Shown here one piece after another: positions 1 through 33,057 of a DNA stretch of 35,103 nt. The stretch's first letter is position 1, and each line of letters starts with the position of its first letter. The stretch is taken from contig JAUIJC010000041.1 in NCBI GenBank assembly GCA_030431525.1, positions 1-35,103 of the forward strand, in the 5' to 3' direction. A program made the position numbers and the translations under genes. The notes under the pieces are model-generated. The model made no database searches. It was given only the letters and a program-made list of their open reading frames with translations, and was not told the DNA's origin. Origin of the DNA: Bacteroidia bacterium (GTDB lineage Bacteria > Bacteroidota > Bacteroidia > Cytophagales > JAAEPT01).

Positions 1-156
1 GCAGTATATCAACAGCCTTAACAACAAGGACCCTTTAAGCTTGCTCACATTTTTATCGACATTGGTGAGTTTACTCAGGGAAGACAGCTTTTTTTCTGGA
101 ACATAGCCCAATACACGAGCTAATGATCTCGTTTTATCTACAGATAATGAGTCCAT
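1..156 (-). CDS. IS4-family transposase, N-terminal fragment (cut by window edge)
   Basis: This minus-strand reading frame starts with ATG at 156 and runs 52 codons to the window edge without a stop, so only the N-terminus is visible. The segment LTNVDKNVSKLKGSLLLRLL, followed by IYC, resembles the N-terminal domain of Bacteroidota IS4-type DDE transposases, where a V-D-x-x-V-x-K-L-x-G pattern precedes a hydrophobic helix. The catalytic DDE residues would lie outside the window. The assignment is from family memory, not a search. Whether the element is intact cannot be told. If it is, its upstream end should lie between 157 and about 360, before the hydrolase gene. Confidence 0.6.
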   Translation of the reverse strand, partial: MDSLSVDKTRSLARVLGYVPEKKLSSLSKLTNVDKNVSKLKGSLLLRLLIYC

Positions 157-368
157 TTTCCTGTCCGTTTGATTATTTACTTATATGACGCTGGACAGGG
201 AAATGGATTTTTCTTTTTGAAAGAAAGTTTTGAACACGAGTGGTATGAAACCCGACGCTATGGATACAGCATATGCGAACCACACACAGTCAATAGCGGT
301 AGGTTTTATACCTACCGACCAAGTGAGTTATCCTTAATGAAATAACATTTAGTTCAGGCCTATTGTTG
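157..368. other. Non-coding spacer, probable IS end / flank
   Basis: This stretch has no gene. It holds an imperfect inverted pair (CCTGTCC near 161-167 against GGACAGG near 192-199) just upstream of the transposase start, and the palindrome at 298-316. One of these may belong to the IS terminus, but no matching second end is in the window, so the IS boundary is not resolved. Confidence 0.4.
298..316. repeat. GGTAGG-CCTACC palindrome
   Basis: Six-base arms GGTAGG (298-303) and CCTACC (311-316) flank a 7-nt spacer TTTTATA. The right half contains TACCTA, the same word that is repeated six times at 6213-6295 on the other side of the iron-type operon. There is no T-tract, so it is not an obvious terminator. 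Confidence 0.45.
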
Positions 369-3739: not shown

Positions 3740-3762
3740 GAGTGTAATTTGAATAGAGTATT

Positions 3763-3826
3763 AAGTACAATGTATTATGTACAATGATTGCCCTGTAGCC
3801 AACTCATTGCACATAATACATTATAT
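3763..3826. repeat. Long imperfect palindrome, copy 2 of the hairpin element
   Basis: The left arm 3763-3787 and right arm 3804-3826 pair at about 20 of 23 positions around a 16-nt loop that starts TTGCCC, as in the copy at 1197-1264. It lies immediately upstream of the TonB-dependent receptor gene and downstream of the imelysin-like gene, so it sits inside the presumed operon. Confidence 0.85.
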
Positions 3827-3848
3827 AGCCTGAAAGGTGGCTTTTGGA

Positions 3849-4937
3849 TTAGTCCCCGTCGTTATCCTGATAAGTAATTTGAACAGACAAGGCATTTGTC
3901 ATATCTACTTTTAGGAGAAGCAGGAGGGCCTTCAATTCATCATAAGCCAAATCGGCCTGAGTAATATTTCCTTGTTCCAAGTTCTCCACATACGGGGATG
4001 GAATAAGGTTGATCTCATTGGTGGTTTTGTTGAATTGAGCGTCAATTTCTGTTGCCAAATTGGCTTGGTCCAGAGAAATCATGAAGTCGTCAAAACCCAA
4101 TCCATTCACATTGTCGGTAGAGACACCACGGTAGAAATCGTGCATTGCCTTGATGTTAGCGGATGCCAAAGTTACGGAAAGTCCACTATAGAGTCCTTCA
4201 GCTTTGTCTGGCTGGACGGCGCCAAAACTGCGAACACCTAATGGAATGCCCACTTTGTTATCACGAAGATGGCGCTCAAAATGCAACACAAAAGCATTCA
4301 CCACATTGCCAATAGCACTACCAGTTCCAGTTCCAGAGGCCTCGTTGAATTTGGCCAAGTAAGAAGTTTCCCAAGTGTTGATGACACCAGCAATTTTGTT
4401 TTGCATATCAACTACAATGGCTTGAAGATAGGCCAAACGTTTCTCCCTCTCTGCATCTTCTTGGTAGTAGAAAAGCACGCCTTCTTCGTCCGTGGCTACA
4501 CCGTATAGCAAATAATCCAAGGCAGGGAAGCCCTTGGAAGTGTAGTTGCCGTAGGTCAAATCCACATTCTCCAGCAGGATATTGTCATCAATATTTGTGG
4601 TGTTGGCAGGGAAGTTATTGATGTGTTGACGAAGCAAAGCATCTTCAGCAGGGCCGAACTGATAGAAGGAAGCTTTTTGCCATGTGATATAGGCGCTTTC
4701 AAAAGCAGTTTTTACAGCCTTCAAATGTTCGCTATCTGAGTTCTGGGCAAAAGAGTCCACAGCAGCTTTTAATGGCGTTAAGCTACTTTGAAAGTTTTTG
4801 TAGGAAGGAAGAATGATTTCTTCACCCATGTTCGTTCTCAATTCTTTGGAGTCGATATCAGGGGTGGTGTCCAATCCATCACATGACCCCATAAGGCCAA
4901 TAATGAGTGCCAGAATACAATAGCGAAGGGATTTCAT
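3849..4937 (-). CDS. Imelysin-family lipoprotein
   Basis: A 362-residue lipoprotein of the imelysin (IrpA/EfeO-related, PF09375-type) family. The signal peptide ends in a lipobox LMGSC, with Cys19 the likely lipidated residue. The family hallmark segment GFPALDYLLYG occupies the place where classical imelysins have a G-x-H-x-x-E motif, so here the histidine is replaced by proline and the glutamate by aspartate. The C-terminal half is helical, with an FxxY/W-rich core, in keeping with the four-helix-bundle fold. Imelysins are linked to iron handling and lack proven protease activity. Its placement between the DUF4856 gene and a FecA-like receptor fits a cell-surface or periplasmic iron-acquisition role. 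The ligand is unknown. Confidence 0.87.
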   Translation of the reverse strand: MKSLRYCILALIIGLMGSCDGLDTTPDIDSKELRTNMGEEIILPSYKNFQSSLTPLKAAVDSFAQNSDSEHLKAVKTAFESAYITWQKASFYQFGPAEDALLRQHINNFPANTTNIDDNILLENVDLTYGNYTSKGFPALDYLLYGVATDEEGVLFYYQEDAEREKRLAYLQAIVVDMQNKIAGVINTWETSYLAKFNEASGTGTGSAIGNVVNAFVLHFERHLRDNKVGIPLGVRSFGAVQPDKAEGLYSGLSVTLASANIKAMHDFYRGVSTDNVNGLGFDDFMISLDQANLATEIDAQFNKTTNEINLIPSPYVENLEQGNITQADLAYDELKALLLLLKVDMTNALSVQITYQDNDGD

Positions 4938-5028: not shown

Positions 5029-6105
5029 TTATTTCAATTCTGGGTAGAGGCTTTGCAATTCGGCGATAGCCATGTTGAGGTGCATTTCAGAAACTTCATA
5101 AGCATTGTCACCGATGTGGCCCAAGAGTGAAGCCTCGTCACTTGCAGAAACGCGAGATTCTGTTGAAAATTTCAAACCCTTGATAAAGGCAACGGCTTCC
5201 GAGATGTGGTGACAAGCTTCACCTGTTTCACCATCAGCGATGTCGGCTTTTGTGTCATTTAAATAACCCAAAGCGGATTGAGCGAAAACAAGTTCCAACT
5301 GCTCCAAAACAGTTCCCTTTGCAGCCAAGTATCCGTCTTTGTCGTCATTGGAAATTGCAGCACGACCAGCGATAAATGCCTCGTTGAGCTTGCTGAAGGT
5401 ACCCAATGCATCCTCGTGCTTTTTGGCGTATTTGGCGATGTAGCGAGTGGTCGTCAAGTCGGCGGATACACCAAAGTAACCGAAACCTTCGTCCCAGTAG
5501 TGCTCCATGTCGGTACCGTTGGTAGAGTCAATTTCTGTATTGTCAGCAGTCTCAAACTGGTTGCTGATATATCCGTCTGTTCCAGCAATTTGATAGAAGA
5601 AGGTGGATCCCATGATGCCCTTCTCGATCATCTGCTTAAGCTCCCAACCTTTGGCATCAACCAAGATTTTGTCTCCGCTTGAACGGAACAAGTAACCGGA
5701 AGTACCGTTAGAAGCCGTGTCCATTTTCTGACTTGCTTCTTCAACCGATTCAAAGTAGGCTTCGAACTCAAGTGTATCAAGCTCGTAAGTTTTGCTTTTT
5801 AGCTGCTTGCTGTAGTCTTGGGAGAAATATCCGCCACCATTCCCGCCAGTGTTGGCAAACATAGCGTTCAAAACATCTGCATTAACAGCTTCTTCATTTC
5901 CTTTGACTACTTCAGCAACCAATTCTTCCAATTGATTCAAGCGAGAAGTCTGGCCAGACCAAGATGCTGGAGAGAAGTCGTAAGTGGTTGGGACTTTGTA
6001 GTCTGGACCAACGTTGCTGTCGTCGTCGCTACAAGATGAAAGTACCAATGCACCAGCCAATAGGAGGCTTGCAGTTTTTGTGAGCTTTGAGTAAAAAGCT
6101 TTCAT
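5029..6105 (-). CDS. DUF4856 lipoprotein (iron-operon associated)
   Basis: A 358-residue lipoprotein with a signal peptide and lipobox (LVLSSCSDD). The mature start VPTTYDF and the SGQTSRLNQLEELV stretch are characteristic of DUF4856 proteins of Bacteroidota, as I recall the family. The family commonly sits next to imelysin-like and TonB-dependent receptor genes, exactly as here. It is the first gene of the minus-strand cluster, has a promoter and a Fur-like palindrome just upstream, and ends about 90 bp before the imelysin gene. The C-terminal half (CHHISEAVAFIKGLKFS and onward) is alpha-helical and somewhat imelysin-like in pattern. No enzymatic motif is visible. A role in binding iron or heme at the envelope is an inference from context only. 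Confidence 0.82.
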   Translation of the reverse strand: MKAFYSKLTKTASLLLAGALVLSSCSDDDSNVGPDYKVPTTYDFSPASWSGQTSRLNQLEELVAEVVKGNEEAVNADVLNAMFANTGGNGGGYFSQDYSKQLKSKTYELDTLEFEAYFESVEEASQKMDTASNGTSGYLFRSSGDKILVDAKGWELKQMIEKGIMGSTFFYQIAGTDGYISNQFETADNTEIDSTNGTDMEHYWDEGFGYFGVSADLTTTRYIAKYAKKHEDALGTFSKLNEAFIAGRAAISNDDKDGYLAAKGTVLEQLELVFAQSALGYLNDTKADIADGETGEACHHISEAVAFIKGLKFSTESRVSASDEASLLGHIGDNAYEVSEMHLNMAIAELQSLYPELK

Positions 6106-6144
6106 GTGGCGTTCGCTTTATTAAGACTTGTTCTAAACCTGATG

Positions 6145-6176
6145 CGAATATATAGCTCGCGTTTTTAACAGGCTAA
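6145..6176 (-). promoter_or_regulatory. Candidate promoter of the DUF4856-imelysin-receptor cluster
   Basis: On the minus strand a -7-like element TATATTCG (6145-6152; consensus TAnnTTTG, one mismatch) lies 21 bp downstream of a TTA at 6174-6176 that could act as the weaker -33 element. It would start transcription about 30-35 bp before the ATG at 6105. Confidence 0.45.
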
Positions 6177-6181
6177 GGTTT

Positions 6182-6200
6182 ATTTAGATTTAAGTTAAAT
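6182..6200. promoter_or_regulatory. Fur-box-like palindrome
   Basis: ATTTAGATTTAAGTTAAAT is palindromic at 14 of 18 paired positions. It resembles the AT-rich ATTTAGA...TCTAAAT form described for Fur boxes. It lies just upstream of the candidate -33 element of the iron-type cluster, so iron-dependent control is plausible. The regulator's identity is an inference. Confidence 0.4.
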
Positions 6201-6212
6201 AGTCGGGGTAAA

Positions 6213-6295
6213 TACCTAATTGTAGGTAGTCTATCTATGGGTAGGTAGTTGTTTGTAGGTATGTCTGGCCTTACTTATAGGTATTCGGATACCTA
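6213..6295. repeat. Array of six TAGGTA/TACCTA words
   Basis: TACCTA occurs at 6213-6218 and 6290-6295. TAGGTA occurs at 6223-6228, 6242-6247, 6256-6261 and 6278-6283. The outer pairs form two small palindromes (6213-6228 and 6278-6295) with two direct copies between them. By chance fewer than 0.1 copies would be expected in this length. The arrangement suggests multiple binding sites for one protein upstream of the iron-type operon. Confidence 0.6.
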
Positions 6296-6576
6296 TTCTT
6301 TTTTCAAGGGATAATTACCGATCCAACATTTCTGAGGATGAAAAGTTCCTGAAAAATCCTCTGAGTATTGAGGATGGAAACTGATTCAAAATGGGAGAAT
6401 ATGAATGGTTGGCGGTGGCGTAATACCCTTTGGTTGGGTTTCTGATTTTTGCAGGCGCAGTCTTTAGTGGTGGAGGGGTAGGAGGTGGGAGTGTATTGAG
6501 ATTTCCTTTGAACGGCCTCTTTTTCTGTGAGAGAATCTGGAAAATATTACAATCGGATTTTGGATGAAACCCATTG
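6296..6576. other. Non-coding stretch
   Basis: Together with the sites at 6145-6295 and the terminator at 6577, this fills the 567-bp gap between the DUF4856 gene and the thioredoxin-like gene. I see no credible gene, RNA or repeat between 6296 and 6576. An open frame across part of it lacks a start codon and convincing protein character. Confidence 0.5.
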
Positions 6577-6626
6577 AAAAACGCCCTTAGAGAGCTGTTT
6601 GGTCATTGCTCTCTAAGGGCGTTTTT
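6577..6626. terminator. Strong intrinsic terminator (bidirectional form)
   Basis: Perfect 19-bp arms AAAAACGCCCTTAGAGAGC (6577-6595) and its complement (6608-6626) enclose a 12-nt loop. The A/T-runs form the base of the stem in both directions. It follows the thioredoxin-like gene on the minus strand. Confidence 0.85.
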
Positions 6627-6672
6627 CTATAACAAGGGACTTCAGTCCTTTGCCTCTAAAACTCTAATTTCT

Positions 6673-7230
6673 TCACTGTTTCCATTTGATGTTGCACCCC
6701 AAGCTTGGCTTTTGGTCCGTCGATACAGTTTGCCCGTTAAGCAAGGCGTCCAGTGCCGCACGGAGGTCTTTGCCATCATTGGGTTCCTCGTTGTGTGGGC
6801 GGGCATCGTCCATCTGCCCACGATAGGCACATTTTAATGTGCTGTCAAACACATAAAAGTCAGGGGTGCAAGCAGCGTCATAGGCTTTGGCCACTTCTTG
6901 ACTTTCATCATAGAGGTAGGGGAAGGAAAAGCCTCTTTCTTCAGCCAACTTTTTCATCAGCTCCGGAGAGTCATCTGGATAGTTTTCCACATCGTTCGCA
7001 CTGATTGCCACAAAGGAGACGCCTTTTTTCTGGTAGTCACTGACCACGTCCAAAAGTCCATCCATGACTCGGATGACGTATGGGCAATGGTTGCAGATAA
7101 ACATCACCACGGTGGCTTGATCTCCTCTGAGATCCATCAAGGCCATGTTTTCCCCACTGATGGTATCTGGAAGGGTAAATTCAGGGGCATTGGTGCCCAA
7201 AGGCAACATGTTGGAAGGTGTGCGTGCCAT
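6673..7230 (-). CDS. Thioredoxin-like / AhpC-TSA family redoxin
   Basis: A 185-residue thioredoxin-fold protein of the peroxiredoxin-like type (PRX_like1 group). It begins with the usual redoxin lead-in PEFTLPDTISGENMALMDLRG. It then has the strand VVMFICNHCPYV with a C-N-H-C active-site pair, and the segment FPYLYDESQEVAKAYDAACTPDFYVF containing the cis-proline region (CTPDFYVFD). It lacks a signal peptide when started at the ATG at 7230, so it is probably cytoplasmic. Further upstream codons would add a low-quality extension. It is likely a thiol-disulfide oxidoreductase or a peroxide-defence protein. It stands alone, transcribed away from the GT2 gene and towards the terminator at 6577-6626. 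Confidence 0.88.
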   Translation of the reverse strand: MARTPSNMLPLGTNAPEFTLPDTISGENMALMDLRGDQATVVMFICNHCPYVIRVMDGLLDVVSDYQKKGVSFVAISANDVENYPDDSPELMKKLAEERGFSFPYLYDESQEVAKAYDAACTPDFYVFDSTLKCAYRGQMDDARPHNEEPNDGKDLRAALDALLNGQTVSTDQKPSLGCNIKWKQ

Positions 7231-10887: not shown

Positions 10888-10901
10888 GGTAATATAATGT
10901 T

Positions 10902-10973
10902 AGTACAAAGTATCAAGTACCAAGTACCAAGACCTGTTGAGGGCTCCGTACTCTATACTTTGTACTTGGTACT
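10902..10973. repeat. Intergenic palindrome of the AAGTAC/GTATCAAG family
   Basis: The left part (10902-10927) is built from AGTACAAAGTAT, CAAGTACC and AAGTACC words. The right part (10948-10973) is their near reverse complement (ACTTTGTACTTGGTACT). The words also occur in elements at 21551-21591 and 32998-33057, and more loosely at 1197 and 3763. It fills nearly the whole nrdB-nrdA spacer and reaches the nrdB stop codon. Confidence 0.75.
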
Positions 10974-10977
10974 CAAT

Positions 10978-11958
10978 TTAGAAATCCTCATCCATGGAGA
11001 ATACCTTGTCGTTGCCATTTTCCATGACACCGGCTTTTTGGTATTCAGCCACTCGCTTCTCAAAGAAGTTGGTCTTTCCCTGAAGGGAAATCATCTCCAT
11101 AAAGTCGAATGGATTGGTGGCGTTATACACCTTTTCGCATCCAAGGGAAATCAAAAGACGGTCGGCCACAAATTCGATGTATTGGCTCATCAAATCAGCG
11201 TTCATGCCGATGAGCTTCACAGGAAGGGCGTCACAAATGAACTCCTTTTCGATTTCTACGGCGTCGCAGATGAGTTCCTTGATTTCAGCTTCAGGGATTT
11301 TGTTGACGATGTGCTCGTTGTAGATGTGGCAAGCAAAGTCGCAGTGCAAACCTTCATCGCGGGAGATGAGCTCGTTGGAGAAGGTCAAGCCCGGCATCAA
11401 ACCACGCTTCTTGAGCCAGAACAGGGAGCAGAAGCTGCCTGAGAAGAAGATGCCTTCTACGGCGGCAAATGCCAACAGGCGGTGGGCGAAGTTCTCGTGC
11501 TCAATCCATTTAAGGGCCCATTCGCCTTTCTTCTTCACGCAGTCGATGGTTTCCAAGGCGTTGAAGAGGTGGTCTTTCTTTTGAGAGTCCTTAACGTAAG
11601 TGTCGATCAGCAAGGAATAGGTTTCCGAGTGGATGTTCTCCATCATGATCTGGAAACCGTAGAAGAACTTCGCTTCTGGGTATTGCACCTCGGAAACAAA
11701 GTTTTCTGCCAAGTTCTCATTCACGATGCCATCGCTGGCCGCAAAGAAGGCCAACACGTGGGAGATGAAGTGGCGCTCGCCGTCGTTGAGGTTTTCCCAA
11801 TCCTTAAGGTCTTGGCTCAAGTCAATTTCCTCGGCGGTCCAGAAGCTGGCTTCGGCCTTTTTGTAAAATTCCCAAATGTCATCGTGCTTGATCGGGAAAA
11901 TGACAAACCGGTTCTTGTTTTCTACCAGAATCGGCTCTTGAGTAAGGTTTGCGCTCAT
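10978..11958 (-). CDS. nrdB: Ribonucleoside-diphosphate reductase, small (beta) subunit, class Ia
   Basis: This 326-residue ferritin-like radical-generating subunit partners NrdA. The start is the ATG at 11958; the codon two positions upstream is TTG and is a weaker choice. [10 protein letters not shown] supplies the first carboxylate ligand. [12 protein letters not shown] supplies the E-x-x-H pair and the radical tyrosine. [11 protein letters not shown] and [10 protein letters not shown] give the remaining Glu and E-x-x-H ligands. The C-terminal tail KVFSMDEDF is the acidic-aromatic peptide that docks into NrdA and resembles the eukaryotic R2 tail (FTLDADF). It is first in the nrdB-nrdA operon and is preceded by a long leader rich in hairpins. 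Confidence 0.96.
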
Positions 11959-21550: not shown

Positions 21551-21591
21551 CAGTATCAAGTATCAAGATGCCAATTCTGGTTTCTTGATAC
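21551..21591. repeat. Short GTATCAAG hairpin repeat
   Basis: A tandem AGTATCAAGTATCAAGA (21552-21568) pairs through GTATCAAGA with TCTTGATAC at 21583-21591. It uses the same words as the repeats at 10902-10973 and 32998-33057 and sits directly before the terminator. Confidence 0.65.
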
Positions 21592-32985: not shown

Positions 32986-32997
32986 TCAACAGGATCT

Positions 32998-33057
32998 AAG
33001 TATCAGGGCACAAGCAAGAAGAATTCGCTCATTTGGATAGTCTTGTGTCTTGATACT
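32998..33057. repeat. Intergenic palindrome of the GTATCAAG family
   Basis: Left arm AAGTATCAGGGCACAAG (32998-33014) and right arm CTTGTGTCTTGATACT (33042-33057) pair at 14 of 16 positions around a 27-nt loop. It sits between the YceI and DoxX genes. Confidence 0.75.

Follow-up and report, generated by a model that had tools for sequence, protein, structure and literature searches.

A six-copy TAGGTA/TACCTA array upstream of a DUF4856-imelysin-TonB receptor cluster as a candidate species-level promoter element in a Bacteroidia bacterium

Genes coding for a DUF4856 protein, an imelysin and a TonB-dependent receptor form a widespread, little-studied iron-uptake set, and in Bacteroidota little is known of iron regulation other than by Fur. 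In the stretch of DNA analyzed here, 35,103 nucleotides of contig JAUIJC010000041.1 from a Bacteroidia bacterium (hereafter the window), six copies of the hexamer TAGGTA or its complement TACCTA are crowded together upstream of such a cluster. This raises the question of whether the hexamers serve as an operator for a second regulator or have arisen in a way that has nothing to do with gene control. The original prediction, that the six copies lie within 83 bp in the order inverted pair, two direct copies, inverted pair, and that they are located upstream of the cluster and beyond a Fur-like site, was confirmed by a word search of the window, by Pfam matches for the three genes and by matches to a published Fur box. 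The features of the locus are as follows.

6213..6295, no strand: six-copy TAGGTA/TACCTA array, from the word listing
6213..6228, no strand: TACCTA-N4-TAGGTA, 16-bp inverted repeat in a 7-2-7 layout, unit 1
6232..6247, no strand: TATCTA-N4-TAGGTA, unit 2, with the geometry of unit 1, one mismatch, 19 bp on
6278..6295, no strand: TAGGTA-N6-TACCTA, inverted repeat whose polarity is opposite to that of 6213..6228 and whose spacing differs
6232, 6238 and 6272: one-mismatch near copies between the array words (TATCTA, TGGGTA and TACTTA, respectively)
6182..6200, plus strand: Fur-box-like site, 15/19 to the Riemerella anatipestifer Fur box (PMC5609570)
6120..6138, plus strand: second Fur-box-like site, 15/19 to the same box (PMC5609570)
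5029..6105, minus strand: DUF4856 protein gene (PF16148), the first gene downstream of the array
3849..4937, minus strand: imelysin/peptidase M75-like gene (PF09375), with no second one found in the genome
1295..3739, minus strand: TonB-dependent receptor gene (PF00593)

The six copies are exact and start at 6213 (minus), 6223 (plus), 6242 (plus), 6256 (plus), 6278 (plus) and 6290 (minus). They are intergenic, with the DUF4856 start codon 108-190 bp downstream, and, seen from that gene, they lie beyond both of the weak Fur-box-like sites; no regulator gene was found adjoining the operon. The borders of the hexamers are sharp, as the six positions are identical in 6/6 copies and none of the flanking columns within 8 bp is invariant. 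Flanks of 2-4 bases per side are no more alike than expected by chance, a slight excess of similarity over shuffled sequence is seen for flanks of 10 bp (p 0.007, with neighbouring flanks overlapping), and stretches of 23 nt located 33 bp apart are 74% alike. The spacings between word centres are irregular (10, 19, 14, 22 and 12 bp), and the best helical period for the words, 11.1 bp, was not significant (p = 0.08). The sole geometry that is repeated within the array is TAYCTA-N4-TAGGTA, which is present in two copies (6213 and 6232) at a pitch of 19 bp, and the adjacent 19-mers of these units are identical at 14/19 positions. Both inverted pairs of the original prediction are present, but they are not equivalent: because the first reads TACCTA-4-TAGGTA and the second TAGGTA-6-TACCTA, the two exact pairs cannot represent a single dimeric site in two copies.

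The array is beyond chance. In the whole window, TAGGTA/TACCTA is found 16 times compared with 6.1 +/- 2.3 in shuffles, of which 0/100 reached 16. Six copies of any 6-mer within 83 bp were found in 0/100 order-3 Markov copies of the window, where the best cluster had five copies and was seen once, and an order-4 Markov simulation of 4.2 Mb yielded a single cluster of five copies but no cluster of six. In its own genome, the word is rare (104 occurrences in a 368,408-base sample, or 0.28 per kb), and the Poisson expectation for such clusters of it is 5e-8 per genome. Real sequence is not Markov, and the 368-kb sample contains five places with at least six copies of some 6-mer in 83 bp; inspected by eye, each of these is a regular repeat of short period, whereas the array is irregular. 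Similar TAGGTA clusters are also not scattered across the genome, a result in line with the original prediction. This follows from the pair counts in the 4.24-Mb genome, in which 6/16 TAGGTA pairs within 30 bp of each other (6 TAGGTA-then-TACCTA, 6 direct and 4 TACCTA-then-TAGGTA, with coding or intergenic context judged by a longest-ORF rule only) fall in the array, from the finding that three copies are reached elsewhere only at C2:116361, inside a long reading frame, and from the rarity of TACCTA-N4-TAGGTA, which at no more than one mismatch occurs seven times in the genome, two of them in the array. An exact copy of TACCTA-N4-TAGGTA is found at one place elsewhere, C70:107923. A DNA search of the organism's own genome with 6100-6680 returned no second copy of the array and nothing better than E = 2 over it, and there was no regulon-like recurrence of the word in the genome.

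The gene content of the cluster is of the iron-uptake type, and a related system has been described in R. anatipestifer, for which the table of Fur- and iron-regulated genes includes a cluster of TonB receptor, gamma-carboxylase-like, imelysin and hypothetical genes (RAYM_09779-09794) and the Fur box is given as ATTTAGAATTATTCTAAAT (PMC5609570). The cluster in the window resembles this operon in its gene set (TonB receptor, imelysin and an adjoining hypothetical gene) and in the Fur-box-like sites upstream, but differs from it in the absence of a gamma-carboxylase-like gene and in the TAGGTA array, which is an additional element and is missing upstream of the gene in 26 relatives whose DUF4856 gene could be aligned. 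These relatives, together with the window, remained of 33 loci after six without a tblastn match (L023, L024, L027, L028, L030 and L032) were left out; one of the relatives, L010, provides only 92 bases of upstream sequence. Scored as the match to the single published R. anatipestifer box within the 500 bp preceding the DUF4856 gene, a Fur box of at least 16/19 was found in 20/26 relatives (among L008-L039) compared with 3/1080 shuffled regions, and for this reason Fur control of DUF4856 is well supported in the relatives. In the window, the best score is 15/19, reached by both sites, and at least 15 was also reached in 60/1080 shuffled upstream regions, so that Fur control is plausible here. 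These scores suggest that DUF4856 is among the core targets of Fur in this group, and a practical result is that the conserved Fur-box-like sites are indicated as the core control of this gene.

The array itself, which the original prediction expected to see retained in related strains, was present upstream of DUF4856 in 0/26 relatives, each with no more than a single TAGGTA in the upstream sequence (up to 500 bp). As the relatives are distant (protein identity of at most about 38%, with a single further genome from this family and no congeneric genome among them), this absence is shown at long range only, and judged from these upstream regions the array is not conserved at large evolutionary distance. 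Three direct TAGGTA copies, the pattern being restricted to direct copies, were found in 66/390 genomes of the order. Among the 30 such loci that were fetched, 20 were scored as coding and 10 as intergenic by the longest-ORF rule, and no relatives of five window proteins were found at these 30 loci at E 0.01.

We tentatively propose that the array serves a candidate regulator as its species-specific operator, layered on the conserved Fur control, a reading that falls just short of an even chance. The array would then be a half-site cluster for one sequence-specific DNA-binding protein and thus a species-specific cis-regulatory element. Several transcription-factor dimers may bind at TACCTA half-sites, and would do so at the very least in the two TAYCTA-N4-TAGGTA units. 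The conserved control of the operon would be repression by Fur, and the array-bound dimers could adjust the output of the operon once Fur lets go. The hexamers are identical and no flanking column is invariant, and therefore protein contact fits better than a decayed longer repeat. For the binding mode, our best guess would be a LuxR/NarL-type response regulator, because such proteins use TAC-N10-GTA (7-2-7) sites together with single half-sites that may face either way and are irregularly spaced. The NarL heptamer consensus is TACYYMT, and the stretches 6213-6228 and 6232-6247 are inverted heptamers with a 2-bp gap and TAC outermost, each of which matches the arms of this consensus at 12/14 positions; however, only 2/6 exact array copies have a T at the seventh position. 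Scores of at least 12/14 in the 7-2-7 layout are found 41 times in 368 kb (38 at 12 and 3 at 13, about 1 per 9 kb), a frequency at which the match does not stand clearly above the genome background, and lax NarL-type heptamers are frequent, with 11 within 100 bp, equal to the array region, in 1/20 sampled stretches. The likeness to NarL/NarP (LuxR/FixJ-type) targets extends to the TACC...GGTA arms, to the 16-bp arrangement of inverted heptamers 2 bp apart and to the additional single heptamers in both orientations, whereas the window has no nitrate or respiratory context, in contrast to NarL systems. NarL sites have been described with the 7-2-7 layout, NarL also binds other heptamer arrangements (PMC4549865, PMC2718512), and the engineered NarL site TACCCCTAAAGGGGTA shares the outer TACC/GGTA with the array (PMC4549865). 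We consider the NarL layout a binding model for the array and not an identification, as the membership test is weak.

The array may be a cooperative operator for a candidate regulator, as in the original prediction, and is perhaps best described as a candidate species-level promoter element of a familiar kind, which is real, unique in its genome and irregular. If it binds a regulator, there would be a second layer of control on the DUF4856-imelysin-TonB receptor set in Bacteroidota. A more far-reaching version, in which the array is the operator of a new iron- or stress-linked activator of this order that acts beside Fur at a single operon and in which the six half-sites give a steep, switch-like response, seems improbable to us. 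Among the literature matches listed, nothing relevant was found for TAGGTA together with TACCTA, and none mentioned DUF4856.

The main rival to the operator reading is that the array has no regulatory role and was left behind, as a relict or a by-product, by local short-sequence duplication of the kind that seeds intergenic short-unit arrays in this genome, an explanation that we rate as the less probable of the two and yet as a serious contender. Intergenic short-unit arrays are indeed abundant in this genome, in which AGTAYMAAGTAYMA is found 72 times compared with 1 for the reversed control, and the five 6-mer clusters of the 368-kb sample as well as regular 6-mer and 7-mer tandem arrays of TAGGTA in some genomes of the order point in the same direction, as does the likeness of the array to itself in the 19-mers, the 23-nt stretches and the 10-bp flanks. 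The array, however, does not behave like such repeats. It has no 7-bp period, with a lag-7 identity of 0.26 compared with 0.45-0.66 in seven short-repeat arrays, and it forms no hairpin (fold z -1.6), in contrast to z values of -4.0 to -7.4 for four heptamer hairpins of the genome; its words are in mixed orientation, and hexamer borders as sharp as these are not expected from the decay of a longer unit. Tandem Repeats Finder gave no report at the array, which we accordingly do not regard as a tandem repeat. The TAACTGA intergenic heptamer repeats described for some Bacteroidetes, which are direct tandem repeats located mostly near start codons (PMC4679880), have in common with the array that short words are repeated between genes, but the array is irregular, of mixed orientation and located further upstream.

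The remaining explanations appear far less probable than either of these. The half-site of the DtxR box is TTAGGTTAGSCTAACCTAA, which the TAGGT/ACCTA half-sites resemble, and the genome codes for a DtxR-family regulator in which DtxR, dimerisation and FeoA domains are combined, so that a metal regulator of the DtxR/MntR/IdeR type could be imagined to bind TAGGT...ACCTA half-sites in the array. However, the DtxR/IdeR box is a 19-bp palindrome with fixed half-site spacing, a convergent pair with a gap of 5, whereas the array varies in spacing and polarity, with a gap of 6 bp in the convergent and 4 bp in the divergent pair. In addition, the DtxR-family gene heads a ZnuA-type metal ABC transporter operon with another palindrome, TTTAGACCTGTCTAAA, and no TAGGT...ACCTA pair in its promoter, which makes DtxR an unlikely regulator of the array. 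The TTTAGACCTGTCTAAA palindrome is located at L155 3660-3741 (G000 C35), in the promoter of the DtxR-type/FeoA and ZnuA-type ABC operon, and a second DtxR C-terminal domain is found in this operon at the end of a permease-like frame. Equally hard to credit is the idea that an MliR-type, MerR-like iron activator, as known from Bizionia argentinensis, acts through the array. MerR-type activators usually use a single site inside the promoter spacer and not an upstream array. The genome has two MerR-type proteins, one of them short (144 aa, C16:59283), and in B. argentinensis the transcripts for an imelysin-like protein and for a TonB receptor for siderophores are lowered when mliR is deleted, although the relevant passages of that study give no binding site (PMC9478572). 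Least probable of all is that the array works as RNA, in the form of leader hairpins, or as a recombination or insertion site. Two short hairpins could form from the inverted pairs, but the folding is not stronger than that of shuffled sequence (z -1.6 and -1.0), no Rfam family reached its gathering score in the window, and the array is probably outside the transcript because it lies upstream of both Fur-like sites; the RNA candidate was therefore rejected, and the lack of another copy of the array in the genome argues against a site for recombination or insertion.

The same word was also said to recur in a palindrome at 298-316, on the far side of the operon. One exact TACCTA is present there, at 309-314, but the palindrome does not qualify as a second operator, as it forms the end of a ~95-bp repeat (window 224-323) that is dispersed between genes and has ~40 matches in the genome. 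This repeat holds two palindromes, one CGTCGGGTATGAAACCCGACG-like and the other CGGTAGGTTTTATACCTACCG. A search with window 1-360 gave 43 genome matches including the window itself, 42 of which overlap 224-323 at least partly and some of which are located at contig ends, and in 12 near-full-length copies besides the window, compared by eye, exact GGTAGGTTTTATACCTACC was found in 9/12. Since it belongs to a copy of this repeat, the 298-316 palindrome does not argue for a common operator on both sides of the operon and was rejected as a partner of the array; the separation of the two is a further practical result.

Adjoining the ~95-bp repeat is a frame at 1-156 on the minus strand, which looks like the start of a transposase but has no Pfam match; part of it recurs at other contig ends. 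The window also contains intergenic hairpins with arms of related 7-mer runs (AGTAYCA, TGTACAA and the like) at 1196-1275, 3755-3830, 10895-10980, 21552-21590 and 32996-33055, two of them within the DUF4856-imelysin-receptor cluster itself. All but the one at 21552 were folded, with the z values of -4.0 to -7.4 given above, and these hairpins appear more unusual than the TAGGTA array. Of 21 distinct places with AGTAYMAAGTAYMA that were checked, 18 are intergenic, 14 of these between co-directional genes. Another dispersed palindromic repeat, which is terminator-like and consists of GCCCTTAGAGAGC...GCTCTCTAAGGGC and an adjoining stretch, lies at 6573-6663 of the window and is related to some 20 places in the genome, for the most part with 73-86% identity.
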